Shown one piece after another: positions 8,606-63,772 of a stretch of 64,000 nucleotides of DNA. The position numbers and the translations under genes are program-made. The notes beneath the pieces were generated by a model. The model was given only the letters and a program-made list of their open reading frames with translations, was not told where the DNA came from and ran no database searches. Location: positions 1 to 64,000 of the forward strand of contig NZ_LWQU01000196.1 of assembly GCF_001650635.1 (NCBI RefSeq), given 5' to 3'. How positions within the stretch are numbered: the first letter of the stretch is position 1; each line of letters starts with the position of its first letter. Source of the DNA: Magnetospirillum moscoviense (GTDB lineage Bacteria; Pseudomonadota; Alphaproteobacteria; Rhodospirillales; Magnetospirillaceae).

Positions 8606-10384
8606 CTAATTGGCCTGACGGCGCAGGAAGGCGGGGATGTCCAGGTCACCGGAATCACGGCCGATGGTCGGCTCGGAATGGGCGGCCGGAGCCCCCATGC
8701 GCGGAGCCTGCGGGGCCGGATTGGCGCGGGGTTCGACGCGCTGTTGCGGCTGCGGCTGCTGCGGCGGTTGCTGCGGCTGACGACGGCTGCTCAGCAATCC
8801 GAACAGGCCGCCGGCCCGACGCGGTTCGGCCTGCGGCTGCGGCTGCGGGGCCGGTTGGGCCATGCGCGGCGCCGGCTGCTGGGGCTGGGCGACGATGCCG
8901 GAGACGGTGCGGCTCAATTCGCCCATGTCAGGATGCTCGGCATGTGCCGGGTCCTCCTCGTAGGACGGCTCGACCGCCGGGGCCGGCTCGCGGGCGAAGG
9001 TTGGCTCGGCGCGTTGGACGTGCGCGGACTCGGCGCGTTGGACGTGCGCGGACTCGGCGCGTTGGACGTGCGCGGACTCGGCGCGGTGAACTTGCGCGGA
9101 CTCGGGCTGCGGCTGCCGCTGCGGCCGGGCCTGCATCTGCGGCTGGGGGTGGGCCTCGGCGCGGGCTTGCGGCTGCGGCAGGGGCATTTCGAGGGTGGTC
9201 GGACGTTCGGCCGGGGTGACCCGGACGGCGACCGTCGGGGCGGCGGCGGCCTGGGGCGCCGGACGGGCGACCGGCTGTTGGGCCGGGGCTGTCTGGGCGG
9301 CGGTGACCACGGTCGGACGGAAGGCCGGCTGCGGGGCCTGCTGGGCGACGCGCTGCTGGGCGGCCGGAGCGGTGTTGCCGCCGACCAGCGAGATCACGGT
9401 CGGCTTCGGCGCCGCCATGGCTTCCGAGGCGATGCCGGTGGCCACCACCGACACCCGCATCTTGCCGTTCAGCTTCTCGTCGAAGGTCGAGCCGAAGATG
9501 ATGTTGGCGTCGGGATCGACCTCGTCGCGGATGCGGTTGGCGGCTTCATCGACCTCGAACAGGGTCATGTCCATGCCGCCGGTGATGTTGATCAGCACGC
9601 CCTTGGCGCCCTTCATCGAGGTATCGTCCAGCAACGGGTTCGAGATGGCCGCCTCGGCCGCCGCGATGGCGCGCTTGTCACCTTCGGCTTCGCCGGTGCC
9701 CATCATGGCCTTACCCATCTCGCTCATCACGGTGCGGATGTCGGCGAAGTCCAGGTTGATCAGGCCGGGCATGATCATCAGGTCGGTGACGCCGCGCACG
9801 CCGGAATACAGCACGTCGTCGGCCATCTTGAAGGCGTCGGCGAAGGTGGTGCGCTCGGTGGCGACGCGGAACAGGTTCTGGTTGGGGATGATGATCAAGG
9901 TATCGACATAGGCCGACAATTCCTCGATGGCGCCCTCGGCGGTGCGCATGCGGTGCGCGCCCTCGAAGTGGAACGGCTTGGTCACCACGCCGACGGTCAG
10001 GATGCCCTGGTCGCGGGCGGCCCGCGCGATGACCGGAGCGGCGCCCGAGCCGGTGCCGCCGCCCATGCCGGCGGTGATGAACACCATGTTGGCGCCGGCG
10101 ATCTGGCCGATCACCTCTTCCAGGCTTTCCTCGGCGGCGGCGCGGCCGATCTCGGGACGCGAGCCGGCACCCAGGCCTTGGGTGATGGCGGTGCCCAGCT
10201 GGATGCGGCGCTCGGTGCGCGACTGGGTGATCGCCTGGGCGTCGGTATTGGCGACGATGAACTCGACGCCTTCCAGCTTCGACGAAATCATGTTGTTGAC
10301 GGCGTTGCCGCCGGCGCCACCGACGCCGATCACGGTGATCTTGGGCTTCAGCTCGTTGGCCGCCCCGGGAAGAAAGGTCAGCAT
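8606..10384 (-). CDS. ftsZ: Cell division protein FtsZ
   Basis: FtsZ is the tubulin-like GTPase that forms the division ring. The GTPase domain occupies about residues 1-320, with the signature [13 protein letters not shown] and the N-terminal [14 protein letters not shown] long Pro/Gln/Ala-rich linker follows, containing four 8-residue repeats (AESAHVQR type). The conserved tail [11 protein letters not shown], the binding peptide for FtsA and other partners, ends the protein. The start is the second ATG (10384) because GGAGG is 7 nt upstream of it; the first ATG (10390) lies directly against the Shine-Dalgarno. The length of 592 aa is typical of alphaproteobacterial FtsZ with extended linkers. 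Confidence 0.97.
9011..9106 (-). repeat. 24-bp tandem repeat in the ftsZ linker
   Basis: Three identical 24-bp units (9011-9034, 9035-9058, 9059-9082) and a diverged fourth (9083-9106) encode repeated AESAHVQR-like octapeptides in the disordered FtsZ linker. Identical units suggest recent slippage expansion, and copy number may vary between strains. Confidence 0.9.
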
Positions 10385-31412: not shown

Positions 31413-31523
31413 GCGCGAAGCGCATGCCCGTGCCGGGCCGGCTCAAGCGCCGCCGGGCTTGGCACTGTGCCATAAAGCCCGAGCGGCGATTGAGCCGCCC
31501 GGCTACGGGCATGCGCCTCGCGC
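31413..31523. repeat. 111-bp long hairpin next to the universal stress gene
   Basis: The sequence is one long inverted repeat with arms of about 48 bp and only a few mismatches or one-base bulges, closing on a 13-nt loop region. It begins GCGCGAAGCGCATGCCCGT and ends with its complement, touching the stop codon of the universal stress gene. It lacks a T-run. It could be a MITE-like or REP-like element, or a structured 3' UTR. Confidence 0.8.
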
Positions 31524-51703: not shown

Positions 51704-52102
51704 ATGTTCACCAAGTCCCAGATTGAAGCCGCCCGTTACACCCTGCGGACGCCCTTCGACCACCCCGAATCCGAGGCCATGCGGAAGAGCATTCTCTGGC
51801 TCATGGACCAGTACATGGTCAACCCGCCGCCGACCAAGCAGGGTCTGAAGACCCACAAGCCCCGCCGTACTTATGACGAAGCGGCGGACATCATCCTCTC
51901 CGAAGACCCGCCTTCGGTTCTGATCGAACGCTATGGCATCAAGGTGGGGACGATCAAGGCGATCAAGTCCGGGGCCGGGAGCTACAAGAAGTTCGGGGGC
52001 TGCCTGGAACTCTGGAAGGAATACAGCGAGAAGTACCCTGCTGAGATTCACGGCATGACGAAAAGCAGCAACGACAATCAGAAATTCCAGGAGGCCATGT
52101 GA
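51704..52102 (+). CDS. Hypothetical protein with an HTH-like segment
   Basis: The 132-residue product (MFTKSQIEAARYTLRTPFDH...) has a helix-turn-helix-like stretch DPPSVLIERYGIKVGTIKAI and a tail SSNDNQKFQEAM similar to the preceding protein. GAAGGAGG precedes the ATG. The stop overlaps the methyltransferase ATG. It may be a small regulator; this is a guess. Confidence 0.55.
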   Translation: MFTKSQIEAARYTLRTPFDHPESEAMRKSILWLMDQYMVNPPPTKQGLKTHKPRRTYDEAADIILSEDPPSVLIERYGIKVGTIKAIKSGAGSYKKFGGCLELWKEYSEKYPAEIHGMTKSSNDNQKFQEAM

Positions 52103-53733
52103 TGATTACCGCCCTCAAGTCTTACCTGAACACCACCGTGGTTCCCGTTCCTGAATCCATGTCGAGCATGATCAAGTCCCCTGGGGGGAAGCACCGGACG
52201 GCTTCCGATCTGGTCAACCTCGCCCCATTCAATGTGGAGGAATACCGCGAACCCTTCGCCGGGTCTGCCGCCGTGGGTTTCCGTATGGTTCGGACGGGCC
52301 GTGTCACGGATATCTGGCTCAACGACCTCGATTCCAACATTGCCAACCAGTGGACCGTGGTTCGCGACGACCCCGCCGGTCTGATGCGGGTGCTGCATTC
52401 GCTGATTGAACAGTTTGGGGCTGCCAGCCAAGAATTGTTCGATCTGGCCGTTCAGATGGTCGAGAGCGACGACCGGGCCGAGGCGGCGGCGGGCTTCTAC
52501 GTTCGCAACCACCTGTCCATGTTTGGCACCAACGGCATGTCGCGTTTTGCCCCGAGCATTGAACGTGACGGTCGCGGCCTCAAGCCGGTCCACATCAATT
52601 ACATCCCCCAGTTTTCGGCTTGGCTCCAGGGTGCCCGGATCACCAATTTGGACTACCGCGAGGTTCTGGACGCCCCTGGCTCCGGGGTCATGTGTTTTCT
52701 CGACCCGCCCTATGCCAAGGTAAGCAAGCGGATGTATACGTGCGGCGAACTCGACCTGGAAGAGCTTGCCCGGCACGTTCGCAACAGCGGCCATTCCTGC
52801 TTGGTCACTGTGGACGACAGCCCGGAGAATCGTGTCGCATTCTCGGACATGAATCCGATCTGCCGCACCTACACCAGCAACATGGGCAAGTTTCACGAGG
52901 CGGCGGAACTGATCTGTGCCAACTACTCCACCCCGCTCTATGCCTTCCATGCCCGCAGCATCGGGGTGGAGATCGAGCAGGCCGCCCCGGTAGTCTTGCC
53001 CAACAATGATGAGGTGCCGGTGGTGAAGGCCGAAACGGCCACCGACGATTCACCCGCTGGTGAACCCACGAAGAAGGAATGGAAGGCCCGGACCCTTTTC
53101 ATCACCGAGGGGAACGAAAAAAAGAATTGCGAGTGGTATACACCGCCCAGTTTGCTCCGCCATATCTATGCCGCCAACGACAACCAGCCGCTCGATCTCG
53201 ACCCTTGTTCGCCCAGCAAGGGGGAGAGTGCCCCGGTTTGGGCACTCCAGCATTTCACCCAGGACGACGACGGCTTGGCTCAAAAATGGCACGGTCGTGT
53301 TTGGTTGAACCCCCCATATCATAGCCTTCGTCACTGGGTCGAAAAGGCCGCCGATGCGGTGTGGTGCCGCCACATGCCCGATGCTCCGACCGAATCTTCT
53401 GCTGTTCGTGACCAGCCCCTATGCGAAACCGTGGTCGGTATCATCCCGGTTCGCACCCACACGAGCTACTGGCGGAAATTCGTGAGTGAACATGCCTGCG
53501 TGTTCTTCATCACGGGCAAGGTTGGGTTCTTGAAGGGGATTGATGGGAAAGGTGTCGAAGTTCAATCCCGGATGCCCGAGGGCTTGGCCTTTGTGATCTG
53601 GGGAAACCATAGGCCGTTTTCGAATTATCTCCGGTCGCTTCCCAAGTCGGTGATCGACGTGTACGAACGATCCGGCCCTGCCATCCACGATCACCCTGTG
53701 CGGTATTGGGATGCGATCAAGAAGGTGGGATGA
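52102..53733 (+). CDS. Fusion of two adenine-N6 DNA methyltransferase domains
   Basis: The 543-residue protein joins a D12-class (Dam-like) methyltransferase to a phage-type N6-adenine methyltransferase. The first half has IKSPGGKHRTASDLV, the SAM loop REPFAGSAAVGFRMV and the catalytic motif CFLDPPYAK. The second half, from about residue 345, has EWYTPPSLLRHIYAANDNQP, LDLDPCSPSKGESAPVWAL and the catalytic motif RVWLNPPYHSL. Both active-site tetrads (DPPY and NPPY) look intact. A ~35-residue acidic linker joins them. It may mask island DNA from host restriction or from the BREX locus. Its sequence specificity is unknown. Confidence 0.85.
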   Translation: MITALKSYLNTTVVPVPESMSSMIKSPGGKHRTASDLVNLAPFNVEEYREPFAGSAAVGFRMVRTGRVTDIWLNDLDSNIANQWTVVRDDPAGLMRVLHSLIEQFGAASQELFDLAVQMVESDDRAEAAAGFYVRNHLSMFGTNGMSRFAPSIERDGRGLKPVHINYIPQFSAWLQGARITNLDYREVLDAPGSGVMCFLDPPYAKVSKRMYTCGELDLEELARHVRNSGHSCLVTVDDSPENRVAFSDMNPICRTYTSNMGKFHEAAELICANYSTPLYAFHARSIGVEIEQAAPVVLPNNDEVPVVKAETATDDSPAGEPTKKEWKARTLFITEGNEKKNCEWYTPPSLLRHIYAANDNQPLDLDPCSPSKGESAPVWALQHFTQDDDGLAQKWHGRVWLNPPYHSLRHWVEKAADAVWCRHMPDAPTESSAVRDQPLCETVVGIIPVRTHTSYWRKFVSEHACVFFITGKVGFLKGIDGKGVEVQSRMPEGLAFVIWGNHRPFSNYLRSLPKSVIDVYERSGPAIHDHPVRYWDAIKKVG

Positions 53734-53848: not shown

Positions 53849-54277
53849 CTATTCACCCGACCTGTTCCGCTTGGCCTTGGCCTTTGCCGCTTCGATCTGG
53901 GTATCGAGTTCGCCGGACTTCACGGCCTGGACCACCTGGGTCAGTACAGTGATCACCTCCTTTTCGGTCTTACCGGCAACAATGCTCGGCTTTCCCGGCT
54001 GGAGTTCGACCACGACGGCATGACCGTAGCGTACCTGCACCATGATGTTCCCATCGGTAGCACGCCAGAACCAGGGCTTCGGGGGAGCCGCGACCGACTT
54101 GCGGATGGCATTGCCTTCGGAATCCTTGGTGTAGCGGGTGCGTTCGACCTTGAAATTGGCATCACCCAGCAGACCGATCTGGTTCTGAATCCCATCGATC
54201 ACCACATCACGGGCAGACTTCTTGCGGGTTTCCGAGATCAGCGGACGCTTGGCATCGGAAAGCTTAAGGTTAAGCAT
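53849..54277 (-). CDS. DUF6641-like plasmid/phage protein
   Basis: The 142-residue protein (MLNLKLSDAKRPLISETRKK...) has the layout of the DUF6641 family known from plasmids: a short Arg/Lys-rich start, KPWFWRATDGNIMVQVRYG in the centre and a helical C-terminus ELDTQIEAAKAKAK. The function is unknown. The ATG is preceded by GGAGG. The family name is from memory, not a search. Confidence 0.6.
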   Translation of the reverse strand: MLNLKLSDAKRPLISETRKKSARDVVIDGIQNQIGLLGDANFKVERTRYTKDSEGNAIRKSVAAPPKPWFWRATDGNIMVQVRYGHAVVVELQPGKPSIVAGKTEKEVITVLTQVVQAVKSGELDTQIEAAKAKAKRNRSGE

Positions 54278-54366
54278 AGTAACCTCCATGCATTGACATC
54301 TGCACATAGGTTAAGGACTCAATTTAGTATTTGCAATATAGCCAGACAAATAATTTTTTGTATCGA

Positions 54367-54675
54367 TCACTCGACACGACGCCAAACTTCCGTCCACGCT
54401 TCGTTTTCAAGTTTCTTCAGTGCCTTCACACCCTCTTTATATTCAGTAGCTTGTGCAGCATCGGTGCATTCTACGGCAGCTTCATTTGTTGCATCGATCA
54501 CTCCGGTCACATTTGATATCAATGACAAAAGTGCTTCAGTCGATATCCTTCGGTTTCTTGATTTCGATGAGCTTAAGTAGCTTTGACCACGATTTAACCA
54601 CTCCCCGAATTCACGACCTGATTTCACGATTCCAAGGCAATGGAACTCTTCGTATATATCCTGTAGTTCACGCAT
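54367..54675 (-). CDS. DUF6626-like small protein
   Basis: The 102-residue protein starts MRELQDIYEEFHCLGIVKSG with AGGAG upstream. The segment REFGEWLNRGQSYLSSSKSR and the following RISTEALLSL resemble a small helix-turn-helix-like family (DUF6626) found with plasmid genes. It lies 38 bp downstream of the large replication protein and is probably co-transcribed with it. Confidence 0.55.
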   Translation of the reverse strand: MRELQDIYEEFHCLGIVKSGREFGEWLNRGQSYLSSSKSRNRRISTEALLSLISNVTGVIDATNEAAVECTDAAQATEYKEGVKALKKLENEAWTEVWRRVE

Positions 54676-54712
54676 ATCGACGTTACTCCTGCTGATGTTG
54701 CAGGAGTATTTA

Positions 54713-57265
54713 TCAAGCTGCTGCGTTCCCACGTGCAGCCCACCCCAGATATCGACCTATCTGATTTCTGGAATTGTAGCGGCCACTTCCGATGGTCGGC
54801 CCGATTTCTCTTTTTTCCAATCCCGCAGCGAATGCCGCCTGTTCCAGCCGGGTTTCGACCATCCATGTGTCGAGCAAACCGGCACTTGCCATGGCGAACC
54901 CATGCAGCGATGCCCGGTATAGGCCGCAGTTTCGTCCCAGCACGACATCACCGATGGCGGCGACCAGTTTCTCAAAATATGCAGCGGCATGAGAGTGATC
55001 TTCGGGCATGGGCAATTCATCTGGAACGGCAATCAAGACCGGCGGAGGCATATCGACAGGCAGGATGTTGTTCTGGACCCATAGGGTGGGATTGATCGGA
55101 TCGCCGTCATAGACCCGGAAAAACCCATCACTGCCATCCATGGGTTTGCACGGCAGGTACATCATGTTCTCCACCGACAGCTTGGTCGGGTCTATCCCAT
55201 GGCATGGCTTTGCCGATCCCCGTTTCCGTTGCCGGGGTGAGCAATATCCGTTGGACTGGACCACCTTGATGATCTGTTTGCAGATGGAGTCGTAGGTCTC
55301 AGCCATCATGTAGCCGGTCGTCGGCATGAATACCCGGTAGCGGGTGTCGTTGGTCGAGGAGGCCGTGTTGTAAACCACCATGGCTTTTCCCGCGAACATC
55401 TTGGCGAAGGCGTGATAGGGCATGTCGCCATCATCGATATCGAGCCAGATGCCCCAGGTGATCACCGCGTTTTCCCTTCCCCTGCTTTTGTCGCCCAGAG
55501 TTGGGTTGAACAGGGTCGGGCTGATCAGGAAGTTGCTGTGCTTGTCCTGGCAGGTCCGCCCATGGCAATGACGAAGCCACTCGATCATGTCGCCCATGGA
55601 CTTGAGGAACAGATGACGGGTGGTGTTGGTGTCCCGGATGTGGCGGAACAAAGTTCCAGCGAATAGCTCCCGTTCCAGAATAGACAAATCCATGAAATCA
55701 GATGCAGATGTATCTGCTAACGGCAAATGGTCATGTTTCGATGTAACGATAGGTGAATATATATTATTCGCCAATCGTAACGGTGAAATCTTACCATTTT
55801 GTATTCCGGGCAATATATTAGCCAGTTCCACTTCCCCCATCTGCTCATCTTGCCTCTTGCGATATGCCCGAACACGGGCTGAATTATCCGCATGGAGCCG
55901 AATGCGGTGCCCCTTGCCCTTCTTTGCAAGCTGAACACCTGGAGCTTGGACCATGGTGCAGCCAGGAAACTGATCGGCCAGCCACTGGGCTACACTGACA
56001 TCGGTGACCACGACCCGAACTGGTACATCGCAATGGAGATCACGAAGACTGCACCGCATCACTGCCTGATAGACGGCTTGATGGCAGATCGCGTCCCTGA
56101 TCTGGTCTGGGGTAATGCCGAAATTCGACAAGAACCGGCATTGCATAGGTGTTGGCAGGAACGAGGCCACCACCACGACATTATGAAAATCGGAAAACTT
56201 ATTCATTCCATGGGGTTTGTGCGGCAACGCGGTCGCGGGCAACTGGGCGAAAAATTCCTCGGCGGCATCCTCTACGTCCTTGTTCACCTGATAGAGGAAT
56301 GGCTGATCCCCAACCAGTTCGGCGGCCTTGGTCAGGCCGAGGATGGTGTTGCTGATCTCCGTTCCATCGACAGTGACCTTCTTGCCGCCCAGCTTTTTGG
56401 ACCAACTATCTTCGGCCAGATAATGAATGGAGACCCGATGACCGTTCTGGTGCTGCTGAAACCGAAGGGCTTTGTTCAACTGGCTATGTGGTTCAAACAC
56501 CGCCCCCTGGACTGCCCATAGGTGATGAAGCAGCGACTCCTCAAAGTGTGCCCCCATGATGATCGCCGAAGCAAACTTGGTGAATGCCGATGGCTTCAGA
56601 ACTCCAAACAGGTAGAGGGGATATTTCCCGTTCTCGGTGTCACCGGCCACGGTGCGTTCGATGTTCTCCCTGATCGCGAAGACATCATAATCCGGGTCCA
56701 GAATGGCTCGGGCTATGGTTCTGAATTCGGCATCAACGGCATCATCACCATCAGCAAGACGGCGAAGCTTGGCATTGTCTGTTGCTGCCACCTTGACGTT
56801 ATCGGCGGAAAAATCCTGCCATGTTATGGCCGATGTGATGATCTCGTGGTTGTGGGGGAGGTGCTTGCAGAACATCACGTCGGGGGCGGGAATCTCATCG
56901 ACGATCACATGCCAGTGTTCGGGCCGGTGGAAATATGGCAACCGCAGCAATGCCTGCTGTGTCAAAAACAGTACCTGGCCCTCTTCACCTGGGCATTTCA
57001 AATGCCCCATGATCGTGGTGATCACCTGCCCTTCTTCGCAGGTGCTGCTATCGAACCGGTAGACCGGAACCGGCTTCTTTCGCCGTGAACTGGCCCGTTC
57101 CTTAGCCTTGGCAAACCATTCGTCGATGCAGGTTTTCGTGGGCTGGGCGATGATGACCTTGTGGCCCTTGGCTGCCATATCCACCGCGTAGGTGACGGCG
57201 GCGTCGGTCTTGCCTGCACTTGCAGGACTTGAAACTGTGAGAATTCGTTTCCCCTTGATCTCCAT
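54713..57265 (-). CDS. Large helicase-primase-like replication protein
   Basis: This 850-residue protein has an N-terminal P-loop ATPase: MEIKGKRILTVSSPASAGKT contains a Walker A-like loop and HWHVIVDEIPAP a Walker B. A C-terminal archaeo-eukaryotic-primase-like domain shows GIWLDIDDGD (DxD), YNTASSTNDTRYRVF and VENMMYLPCKP. Helicase plus primase in one chain is typical of plasmid and satellite replication proteins. The start is set at ATG 57265, because the region above it is a strong terminator hairpin, not coding. A 78-bp palindrome shared with the pglZ-brxL gap lies in frame at about residues 489-514, between the two domains. Helicase and primase activity are inferred from motifs only. 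Confidence 0.65.
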   Translation of the reverse strand: MEIKGKRILTVSSPASAGKTDAAVTYAVDMAAKGHKVIIAQPTKTCIDEWFAKAKERASSRRKKPVPVYRFDSSTCEEGQVITTIMGHLKCPGEEGQVLFLTQQALLRLPYFHRPEHWHVIVDEIPAPDVMFCKHLPHNHEIITSAITWQDFSADNVKVAATDNAKLRRLADGDDAVDAEFRTIARAILDPDYDVFAIRENIERTVAGDTENGKYPLYLFGVLKPSAFTKFASAIIMGAHFEESLLHHLWAVQGAVFEPHSQLNKALRFQQHQNGHRVSIHYLAEDSWSKKLGGKKVTVDGTEISNTILGLTKAAELVGDQPFLYQVNKDVEDAAEEFFAQLPATALPHKPHGMNKFSDFHNVVVVASFLPTPMQCRFLSNFGITPDQIRDAICHQAVYQAVMRCSLRDLHCDVPVRVVVTDVSVAQWLADQFPGCTMVQAPGVQLAKKGKGHRIRLHADNSARVRAYRKRQDEQMGEVELANILPGIQNGKISPLRLANNIYSPIVTSKHDHLPLADTSASDFMDLSILERELFAGTLFRHIRDTNTTRHLFLKSMGDMIEWLRHCHGRTCQDKHSNFLISPTLFNPTLGDKSRGRENAVITWGIWLDIDDGDMPYHAFAKMFAGKAMVVYNTASSTNDTRYRVFMPTTGYMMAETYDSICKQIIKVVQSNGYCSPRQRKRGSAKPCHGIDPTKLSVENMMYLPCKPMDGSDGFFRVYDGDPINPTLWVQNNILPVDMPPPVLIAVPDELPMPEDHSHAAAYFEKLVAAIGDVVLGRNCGLYRASLHGFAMASAGLLDTWMVETRLEQAAFAAGLEKREIGPTIGSGRYNSRNQIGRYLGWAARGNAAA
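55724..55801. repeat. 78-bp imperfect palindrome, copy A, in frame in the replication gene
   Basis: The core reads TAACGAT-N-GGTGAATA, an AT-rich centre, then TATTCGCC-N-ATCGTAA, with outer arms CAAATGGT and ACCATTTTG. Copy B at 63664-63742 differs at only about ten positions over the central 60 bp. The segment is translated without interruption. Confidence 0.8.
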
Positions 57266-57284
57266 AATATCACCAAAAATAAAA

Positions 57285-57325
57285 CCCTCGACAGTGCGAG
57301 CCGCCAAGCTCCTGTCGAGGGTTAT
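57285..57325 (-). terminator. Leader terminator/attenuator of the replication gene
   Basis: On the minus strand AACCCTCGACAG and CTGTCGAGGGTT form a 12-bp stem directly followed by TTTTATTTTT, a classic intrinsic terminator, only 20 nt before the ATG. Its loop carries TTGGCGGCTCG, complementary to an upstream leader segment, so termination may be conditional. Confidence 0.75.
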
Positions 57326-57365
57326 CACCCGAACCTATCCGGGCGTTTGATTGTTGTGATCTGTT

Positions 57366-61609: not shown

Positions 61610-63637
61610 CTAATCTACCCCCAAAGCCTTGAACACCGCATCCACCGGATCACTGTAAAAACTGGTTTGGAACTTGGCGAACAATTCGGCGGGAATGGTT
61701 GGAATATCCGCAGCCGAAGACATCGGGATCAGGATGCGTTTTGCACCTGAATCAAATGCCACCTGAAGGCATTCGGCAAGGTTCTCCACCGGCACCACGC
61801 TGCCACCCAGGCTCATGTCACCCAGCACCACCATCTGCGACTGCAACGGCTTCTGAATGATTGCCGAACAGAACGCCACGAAGCTTGCCAGGGTCATCGC
61901 CTTGGCGGCACCGGTGTTGTGGAGTTCAACGGTGTGCAGGTGGAAATCATGATCACCAGCCTTCGATACACCGCTGACACGTGTGAGGTTGGCTTTGAAA
62001 TAGTCGAAGGCGACCTTCACCGCTTCCTTGGCACCTGAACTTGATCCCAATCCCGAGGTGGTCAACTTGCCATTACCCGCCGTAACCTGGGTTTCAAAAC
62101 GATACAGGCCAAGATGGGCGGCAGCACCGGTTGCCACTGTGTGCAGGACACCCGGCTTCAACGGGCCTTCGGGAATGATTTTGCCTCCCCCCTGCTCGGG
62201 AACGCTGATCCACTTCTCTTCCATCGACTCCATGTCGATGTACGAAAAATGCACATCGTAGAACTCCATGCCGCCGATTTTCTTCAACTGCTCCTTCACC
62301 CGACGCCGCGTTTCCAGGGCGTATTCCAGGCAGCGACGCACAGCGTCCTTGTCGTATCCTTCATGGGGATAGAGCAGCTTCAGAAGCCCAGACACAGTGC
62401 GACGAACGGCGATGGTATCGCGTTGATTCAGGTTGTTCCCGAGCTTGAAAAATTTGTCGATGGCATCGCAAAAAGTCCGCTTCCGCATCTCGCGGAAGAA
62501 CTCCGCCAGATAGTCCACGATCAGCCCGTACTGGTTGGTGAAAAACTCAGGCCGCATCTTCGGAATTTCCCAGCCTGGGATATAGGCATGGAACCGGTCG
62601 AAGAATGCCGAATCGATCATGGCTTCAGGAAACGGGGCGAGCAGGTGGCTGGTCTTCACCAGGGTATCGACCGGCTGATTGATGTTGCCGACGAAAACCA
62701 TGCTGGCATAGGCACTGACCGAATCCTTGCCACGGGCGAAGGAGCCGGATGCCATGTAGTCTTTCATGATCTGCACCCCGTCCTTTTCCTTGAACGTGAT
62801 GCCAGCCACCTCGTCAAAGGCAACGCAATCCCACAATCCAACTAGCCCCACGGTTCTGCGTCCCATGTTGTAAAACAGGTTGGCAACCGTGGTTTGACCA
62901 CCCGAGATCAGGATGCTGTTGGGGCTGATTTCCTTGTAGATGTGGCTCTTACCGGTTCCGCGAGGTCCGAGTTCGCAGACGTTGTAATTGTTCTCCACCA
63001 GCGGAACCATGCGGGCCAACAGGTGCCATTTCACCCGTTCACTGAGGGTGGTTGGCTCCATGCCGCTCGACCGCACCAGCACATCGATCCATTGGGATTC
63101 ATCAAAAGCCTTCCGTCCTTCAAATAGCTCTTCCATATCCATGTTGGGCATCTGGATCGGCTTGAGATCACTGACGATGAACGGGGAACCCTTCTGTCCT
63201 TCCTCGTGGTAGAACTGTATGGTGACGATGCACCAGATTCCGCCGACCAGCAGCTTCTCGTACTGCCGAACATAGTGGTCTGGCATCTCGGCATCCTTGA
63301 CGCCGAGGTTGGACAGCAAGGCTTGGTAGACGTTCCGCTTCTCATTCAGGTGAACAGTCACCTTGTCGATGACCTTGTAGCTACCGCGTTCCCTGATCTT
63401 CGATTTGACCTTCTCGGCTTCATCAGGACGAACATAGTTTTCGGCCAGGATTTTTTTGACCGACTCCAGTCCCTCGCGGATGGTCACCTCGTCATTCGAC
63501 GCACAATACATGCCCAGCAGATATTCCAGGACGTAGACAGGGACGTTTGCCCCTTCCTTCACCAGCTTGGTCAGGTCTTTCCGTACCACCCTGCCAGCAA
63601 AGTGGGAGTTCAACAGATCATCAAGGCTGTCGCTCAT
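61610..63637 (-). CDS. brxL: BREX type 1 protein BrxL (Lon-like AAA+)
   Basis: BrxL is the Lon-related component of type 1 BREX, a phage-exclusion system that methylates host DNA and blocks phage replication. The 675-residue protein has an N-terminal domain, Walker A GPRGTGKS at residues 224-231, Walker B CVAFDEVAG around residue 275, and a C-terminal Lon-like fold (GDMSLGGSVVPVENLAECLQ, GAKRILIPMSSAADI). The position expected to hold the Lon catalytic Ser reads HNTGAAKAM, with Ala, so peptidase activity is uncertain. The ATG at 63637 has GGAG upstream. It follows pglZ in the canonical order after a 135-bp gap with a palindromic repeat. Confidence 0.93.
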   Translation of the reverse strand: MSDSLDDLLNSHFAGRVVRKDLTKLVKEGANVPVYVLEYLLGMYCASNDEVTIREGLESVKKILAENYVRPDEAEKVKSKIRERGSYKVIDKVTVHLNEKRNVYQALLSNLGVKDAEMPDHYVRQYEKLLVGGIWCIVTIQFYHEEGQKGSPFIVSDLKPIQMPNMDMEELFEGRKAFDESQWIDVLVRSSGMEPTTLSERVKWHLLARMVPLVENNYNVCELGPRGTGKSHIYKEISPNSILISGGQTTVANLFYNMGRRTVGLVGLWDCVAFDEVAGITFKEKDGVQIMKDYMASGSFARGKDSVSAYASMVFVGNINQPVDTLVKTSHLLAPFPEAMIDSAFFDRFHAYIPGWEIPKMRPEFFTNQYGLIVDYLAEFFREMRKRTFCDAIDKFFKLGNNLNQRDTIAVRRTVSGLLKLLYPHEGYDKDAVRRCLEYALETRRRVKEQLKKIGGMEFYDVHFSYIDMESMEEKWISVPEQGGGKIIPEGPLKPGVLHTVATGAAAHLGLYRFETQVTAGNGKLTTSGLGSSSGAKEAVKVAFDYFKANLTRVSGVSKAGDHDFHLHTVELHNTGAAKAMTLASFVAFCSAIIQKPLQSQMVVLGDMSLGGSVVPVENLAECLQVAFDSGAKRILIPMSSAADIPTIPAELFAKFQTSFYSDPVDAVFKALGVD

Positions 63638-63663
63638 TCTGCGATCTCCAACGTCCTTATCGG

Positions 63664-63742
63664 CAAGATGGTAAGGTCTCGCTGTAACGATTGATGAATA
63701 ATATATATTCGCCTTTCGTTACGTTGAAATCTGACCATTTTT
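63664..63742. repeat. 78-bp imperfect palindrome, copy B, in the pglZ-brxL gap
   Basis: TAACGAT-N-GATGAATA, an AT-rich centre, then TATTCGCC-N-TTCGTTA, with outer arms AGATGGT and ACCATTTT. It closely matches copy A at 55724-55801 and lies 27 bp upstream of the brxL ATG, where it could act as an operator, a leader hairpin or a mobile palindrome. Confidence 0.8.
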
Positions 63743-63772
63743 ACAAATCCCCAATTTCCTGGGCCACCCATC

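Follow-up and report, generated by a model that had tools for sequence, protein, structure and literature searches.

In the 64,000-nucleotide stretch of Magnetospirillum moscoviense DNA analysed here (the window; contig NZ_LWQU01000196.1), a predicted replication gene, rep, is translated through a palindrome, and a similar palindrome lies in a BREX operon between pglZ and brxL. What does such an element do inside a coding sequence, and why does it occur twice? An earlier note on this DNA had offered two readings: an in-frame insertion of the kind known as Rickettsia palindromic elements (RPEs), or a pair of targets for one island protein.

The palindromes, rep and their islands

Copy 1 (c1; 55725–55801, minus strand) is a 77-bp imperfect palindrome in the linker of rep, translated in frame within the minus-strand ORF 54713–57328. 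Its 33-bp conserved core (55746–55778, minus strand) has ACGA and TCGT half-sites flanking an AT-rich centre. Copy 2 (c2; 63664–63740, minus strand), with its own 33-bp conserved core (63687–63719, minus strand), is 82% identical to c1 over 77 nt. The two similar imperfect palindromes of the earlier note are real, c1 being 1 base shorter at its left end than described there, and c1 is indeed in frame and free of stop codons. When folded as RNA, c1 and c2 give z-scores of −3.1 to −5.0 against dinucleotide shuffles on all four strands. The palindrome score of c1 is 17, the best elsewhere in the gene being 10, and none of 60 codon shuffles reached 17. In DNA folding energy, c1 falls outside the three most unusual 72-nt windows of rep; it is unusual in its symmetry, not in its stability. 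Neither blastn nor a covariance model revealed a third copy in the 4.16-Mb genome, the four rows returned by the model representing two sites, each on both strands. Rfam gave no match at c1 or c2, and a further Rfam scan found tRNAs only.

The rep gene (54713–57328, minus strand) encodes a protein of 871 aa in which weak but consistent profile matches indicate a DEAD/DEAH-like helicase domain and a C-terminal phage-primase-like domain. No Pfam model matches the protein at E 0.001; at looser Pfam thresholds, 8 of 11 aligned Rep members match the DEAD/DEAH helicase model. Among PHROG families, the N-terminal half matches uncharacterised ones and residues 614–747 match phage primase/helicase families, and a PDB sequence search returned generic helicases. 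The T4-like phage kaaroe has a protein related to the Rep N-terminus (22.6% identity, E 2e-10); it is annotated VOG1685, and the link of Rep to pVOG1685 consists of this one phage record. In the available part of PMC5862659, pVOGs 1685 and 9714 are predicted to form one helicase family of viruses and plasmids, 9714 being nearest to the herpesvirus origin-binding protein. The proteins described there have a primase followed by a helicase-like part, whereas in Rep the helicase precedes the primase. Rep gave no match to herpesvirus-family Pfam models at E 1.

Searches at class and phylum level gave matches in 4/289, 5/385 and 3/398 genomes, the M. moscoviense genome included. No relatives of the window Rep, used alone, were found in viral contigs, and tblastn of phages matched the helicase half only. 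Two tblastn searches of plasmids for Rep were empty, and others gave just weak Sinorhizobium matches to the helicase half.

Gene content overlaps to different extents among the islands carrying the palindromes, the shared genes being rep and those for DUF6626, DUF6641, D12 methyltransferase and integrase. In the window, the gene for a DUF6626 protein, a candidate DNA-binding partner of Rep, overlaps the end of rep (54367–54732, minus strand). It is accompanied by genes for a DUF6641-like protein (53849–54307, minus strand; E 0.00035, 21 bits, under the Pfam cut-off of 27), which is found in many of these islands, and for a D12/Dam-type DNA methyltransferase (52099–53733, plus strand). An integrase gene on this contig lies beyond the window (C196:78472–80085). 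A tRNA gene is situated 99–250 bp from the integrase in G009, G002 and G033:C1 (G, genome; C, contig; L, locus); scans detected no tRNA gene in the window or in the 20 kb beyond it. The 4652-bp contig G672:C3 (L147), which has a rep homologue and a serine resolvase and no terminal overlap, is possibly a plasmid.

Several other features were recorded. Small tyrosine recombinases (about 195 aa) occur repeatedly in palindrome islands (G002:C1:3420270, G033:C1:115006, G009:C7:131388, G599:C6:2059784 and G045:C68:253724). A core site for a tyrosine recombinase, comparable to dif, was set aside as an identity for the palindrome, tblastn having found no small recombinase in this region of the window's contig. 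Integron attC cassettes were also set aside, the borders of the inserts lying outside the palindrome, as was a telomere-resolvase site. The window also contains an inverted repeat with 41-nt arms that are 85% complementary (31413–31523) and 24-bp tandem repeats, several of them identical (8981–9124). At the end of another contig, an almost perfect inverted repeat of 130 bp (L148:20–149) is likely to be an assembly artefact.

Conservation and distribution of the rep palindrome

Within the family (55 genomes), rep is present at 91–95% amino acid identity in five further genomes: the three named Paramagnetospirillum kuznetsovii, caucaseum and marisnigri (the last a partial gene in this comparison), a Phaeospirillum MAG, and G038. 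All five contain c1. Three of them show 0/79 differences in it (one-sided Fisher p 0.006, 0.0006 and 0.008); in the other two, 7 and 5 of the 79 positions differ, as much as in the remainder of the gene (p 0.59), mostly through inversion of the loop. The 27 codons of c1 contain no synonymous change in any of the five, whereas the other codons of rep show 54–139. In two of the six genomes (window, L033, L006 and L008), the 15 bp at the centre of c1 (55755–55769) are exactly inverted with the frame kept, which may reflect an earlier hairpin-mediated inversion or template-switching event.

These comparisons give no support to c1 as an RPE-like in-frame insertion. The earlier note had asked whether homologues lack the encoded residues; all five close orthologues contain them and their DNA is nearly fixed, more distant homologues have a different palindrome in the same linker (no strong one in L081 and G599), and searches of the genome found no dispersed family. 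Equally, the pattern that the note had named as fatal to its claim, residues kept over diverging DNA with no more copies, is not what is seen: the DNA of the orthologues is undiverged, and the search that it suggested found, besides the two copies in the M. moscoviense genome, additional copies in relatives.

Homologues at 24–36% amino acid identity (in G002, G037, G148, G400, G014 and the second elements of G033 and G045) carry a palindrome in the corresponding linker of rep, but with a different sequence; the outer arms are unrelated among these lineages, although the position is the same. In six of 10 lineages the linker holds the gene's strongest palindrome (binomial p about 4e-5, with the linker share taken as 8%); the lineages were grouped by eye, L012 and L068 being one lineage scored by L068, the 8% share is an estimate, and the limits of the linker were drawn after the palindromes had been seen. 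For the genes of the window, G002, G033, G037, G148 and G014, only 0–2 of 60 codon shuffles reached the linker palindrome. Scored without gaps, it is weak in L068 (G045; 6/60), L075 (G400; 8/60), L078 (9/60, second best in its gene) and L141/G672, and fails in L012 (G003; 60/60) and L081 (41/60). G599 has none in the linker; its rep is truncated, and a core-bearing palindrome precedes the rep homology in the same frame (model E 0.42). When 14 genes were compared by folding energy, the linker took first place in just two, L074 and L063, and third place in L018.

Thirteen sites could be aligned by their ACGA...TCGT core, with a mostly AT-rich centre between the half-sites. In the 15-bp stem, 83.6% of cells pair, compared with 59.5% after shuffling, a figure inflated by the choice of most of the sites as palindromes. 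The covariation score is 0.572, against 0.153 for shuffled and at most 0.143 for slid alignments. Among 195 cells there are 50 two-sided changes (19.3 when shuffled), three one-sided changes and four G-U cells. Since two-sided changes dominate, the arms seem to change together; this fits an element acting as DNA, perhaps with template switching. The site model R1 was built from the 13 sites, with c1 and c2 among its rows, and matches c1 at 55738–55786 (40.7 bits) and c2 at 63679–63727 (38.8 bits), both being members. Sites omitted from R1 are those of G148 and G599, the G037 copies, G002c, G033 a, c and e, c1 and c2 of G033, c1 of G036, G040 and G045, and c2 of G038.

When R1 was run over the 55 family genomes with stricter filters, 14 gave matches (43 rows, corresponding to 31 sites). 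Genomes with any site have between one and seven, the most being in G033 (nine rows counting both strands), and 26 of the 31 sites fall in already known islands. The new sites are three in G043, one in G039 and one at a contig edge in G048. Integrase or DUF6626 genes of these islands accompany those of G043 and G039; the 20 kb fetched around the G048 site contained no island gene. A rep homologue is absent from the fetched stretches around the sites in G043, G039, G048 and G037:C53. In G036, G040, G003, G014, G400 and G148, the single site found is the one in rep; that of G148 (5.9 Mb, outside R1) matches in the rep linker (E 0.01), although rep itself is on the other strand. Genome-wide R1 searches found nothing in G672, G246 and G339, and in G599 only an off-site match (E 2.16). 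In an unfiltered scan of the 4652-bp contig of G672 (outside R1), the best match was the linker (E 0.044), as it was, non-significantly, in the locus L078 (E 1.1; outside R1). A motif scan returned 24 rows, of which 22 were known or island sites and two lay elsewhere.

Eight predicted viral contigs with rep homologues were examined (L078–L085). Sites lie upstream of rep in three of these: about 100 bp upstream in L080 (E 0.011 for 2.1 kb), 245 bp in L081 (E 0.36 for 174 kb) and about 350 bp in L085 (E 0.0045). The upstream site of L081 repeats the core of a second site (E 0.0026), and this contig holds three copies of the core, two of them in tandem. L083 has a weak match about 5 kb from rep (E 0.5). 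No site was found in L079, L082 or L084, the homology in L079 and L082 starting at the contig end, with the upstream DNA unseen. A pattern derived partly from L080 matched only the contig of L080 itself, a circular result; one derived from L081 matched only the contig of L081, and another pattern scan gave no match.

Copy 2 and the additional copies

The pglZ–brxL gap that holds c2 measures 135 bp in the window (63638–63772, minus strand), with brxL downstream (61610–63637, minus strand), and is alike in G033:C60 and G038. A second BREX, in G033:C80 (L159), has a brxL with 99% protein and 90% DNA identity; the gap there is 20 bp and lacks c2. BREX loci on Polaromonas and Azotobacter plasmids have gaps of 8 and 14 bp. 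Judged by these shorter gaps, c2 is an insertion with a net gain of 115 bp. The idea of an RPE-like insertion, which is not supported for c1, stands for c2 in so far as c2 is an insertion with an empty site in the second BREX. In BREX, c2 may be a bystander, a second initiation site or a break in the coupling of pglZ and brxL. The G033:C80 BREX is about 83–90% identical in DNA to the island BREX, and a DUF6626/DUF6641 pair lies near its end.

Other palindrome-containing units also vary in presence. One of 119 bp is present in G033:C1 and G037 and absent from G002, and one of roughly 190 bp is present in G002 and absent from G033:C1, through either gain or loss in both cases. Empty sites are known, and divergence at them hides any target-site duplication. 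Copies on one contig share a strand in G002 (4/4), G033:C1 (5/5), G043 (3/3), G037:C35 (2/2) and G037:C53 (2/2), and this is the strand of rep wherever rep is present; the copies of L081 are on different strands. Several extra copies are found immediately beyond the 3' ends of integrase, DUF6626 or pglZ genes, and some are followed by T runs. In G043, three palindromes occur within 4 kb (G043:C1:2704259–2708147) beside a truncated integrase and haemerythrin-like genes; the 45 kb fetched there contained no rep homologue.

A putative replication site and its alternatives

The palindrome is probably a cis-acting replication site, either an origin or a Rep-loading site, in integrative islands and viruses of one family, which encode an SF2-type helicase and primase-like Rep. 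This is considered the best reading because the palindrome has been kept with rep through deep divergence, retains its symmetry while its letters change, lies in or just before the gene and is rare elsewhere. A structure conserved over variable sequence, in or next to a replication gene, is the pattern seen, with exceptions that include L012, L081, G599, the weak loci, and G246 and G339, in which R1 found no site. In most lineages seen, the palindrome is carried in frame in the linker of the element's own rep, and in three predicted viral contigs it lies upstream. On this reading, Rep, alone or with the adjacent DUF6626 protein, would bind the inverted ACGA/TCGT half-sites, the AT-rich centre would melt or a hairpin would form, and the primase domain could prime at the site once the island had been excised. 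Extra copies such as c2 may be secondary sites, possibly with an effect on brxL. Of the two readings in the earlier note, putative binding of c1 and c2 by the same island protein fits best, because the copies have a common ACGA...TCGT core, are mostly island-bound and are linked to rep; the coordination of BREX with replication that the note also proposed is conjectural.

The variable presence of the palindrome-containing units, including the net 115 bp of c2 relative to G033:C80 and the 119-bp and roughly 190-bp units, could also be expected of a selfish repeat of the palindromic type (REP, RPE or MITE-like), spreading within islands and tolerated in frame in a protein linker. Several copies are indeed present in G002, G033, G037 and G043, and in-frame REPs, many of them in replication and repair genes, are described in the available part of PMC3733652. 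This explanation is the main rival, though rather unlikely. The copies do not form a dispersed multi-copy family of the RPE or REP kind: there are two in the M. moscoviense genome and no more than seven in any of the 55, mostly in known islands, and the rep site is the only one found in the six genomes listed above. A mobile repeat would also have to occupy the same linker at 24–36% amino acid identity with unrelated outer arms.

It is quite improbable that the palindrome is primarily an operator at which the DUF6626 protein or Rep controls rep, brxL and other island genes. The sites upstream of rep in L080, L081 and L085, the position of c2 upstream of brxL and the overlap of the DUF6626 gene with rep would suit such a role, but operators are not usually placed 1.5 kb into a coding sequence, some of the sites (several) are downstream of genes, and DUF6626 was not detected by tblastn (E 1e-4) in the stretches fetched from G148, G014, G003 and G672. 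Little credence is given to an RNA hairpin acting in the mRNA as a terminator, attenuator or pause between the two Rep domains. The shared strand of copies on one contig and the T runs after several extragenic copies agree with it; the scarcity of G-U cells and of one-sided changes in the stem, the lack of an Rfam match at either copy, the differing strands in L081 and the better strand of G148, opposite to rep, do not, and a terminator within rep would be self-defeating. Several points count against a replication site: multiple extra copies could be terminators, lying 3' of genes and in some cases before T runs; some sites have no rep homologue in the stretch fetched around them; the linker palindrome is weak or missing in several loci and seldom ranks first by folding energy; in two orthologues c1 differs as much as the rest of rep; and template-switch repair could keep the symmetry without selection.

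It is possible, if somewhat doubtful, that the islands represent an undescribed class of bacterial and viral replicator, distantly akin to the herpesvirus origin-binding helicase, in which a structure-conserved palindromic origin lies in frame in its own rep and extra copies, one of them in a BREX operon, have been seeded as further initiation or control sites. No published description of the site was found in the open-licence literature on stem-loop origins with primases, RPEs and in-frame palindromes, BREX and Magnetospirillum, ssi hairpins, or the herpesvirus origin. If the reading as a replication site is correct, the islands would offer a testable bacterial counterpart of palindromic origins served by origin-binding helicases, a hint at how BREX-carrying defence islands copy themselves, and a coding sequence in which the DNA apparently stays symmetric even when the encoded residues differ. 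The site model can already be used as a marker in searches for such islands.

Several known systems share features with this one. Like REPs and Rickettsia RPEs, as covered in the available part of PMC3733652, these palindromes may lie in frame where a linker tolerates them; a genome mostly has tens to thousands of members of those families, whereas here there are one to seven sites, mostly in one island family and tied to rep. The ssi sites of RSF1010 are roughly 40 nt with a hairpin and are recognised by the RepB' primase, according to the text available from PMC4434180; the likeness, a primase together with a hairpin site, is one of description rather than of compared sequence, and recognition by the primase here is putative. 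The herpesvirus origin-binding protein, an SF2 helicase, binds inverted boxes around an AT-rich spacer, and a hairpin form exists (PMC12543377, in the part available). The present system resembles it in the SF2 helicase and in inverted boxes flanking an AT-rich centre, but differs in that homology extends only to the predicted pVOG1685/9714 family (PMC5862659, in part) and that binding and a matching DNA-binding domain are hypothetical. The plasmid pRN1, in the available sections of PMC4234260, requires a 100-nt stem-loop beside its primase-helicase gene that is conserved in structure and not in sequence, and that still functions when moved; its authors describe the origin activity of the stem-loop as lacking direct proof. 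In contrast to pRN1, which is archaeal, with an SF3 helicase and the stem-loop downstream of the gene, the predicted site described here lies in frame inside the gene or upstream of it and accompanies an SF2-like protein. In both, the structure is kept while the sequence turns over, and the element is tied to a primase-helicase replication gene (PMC4234260).
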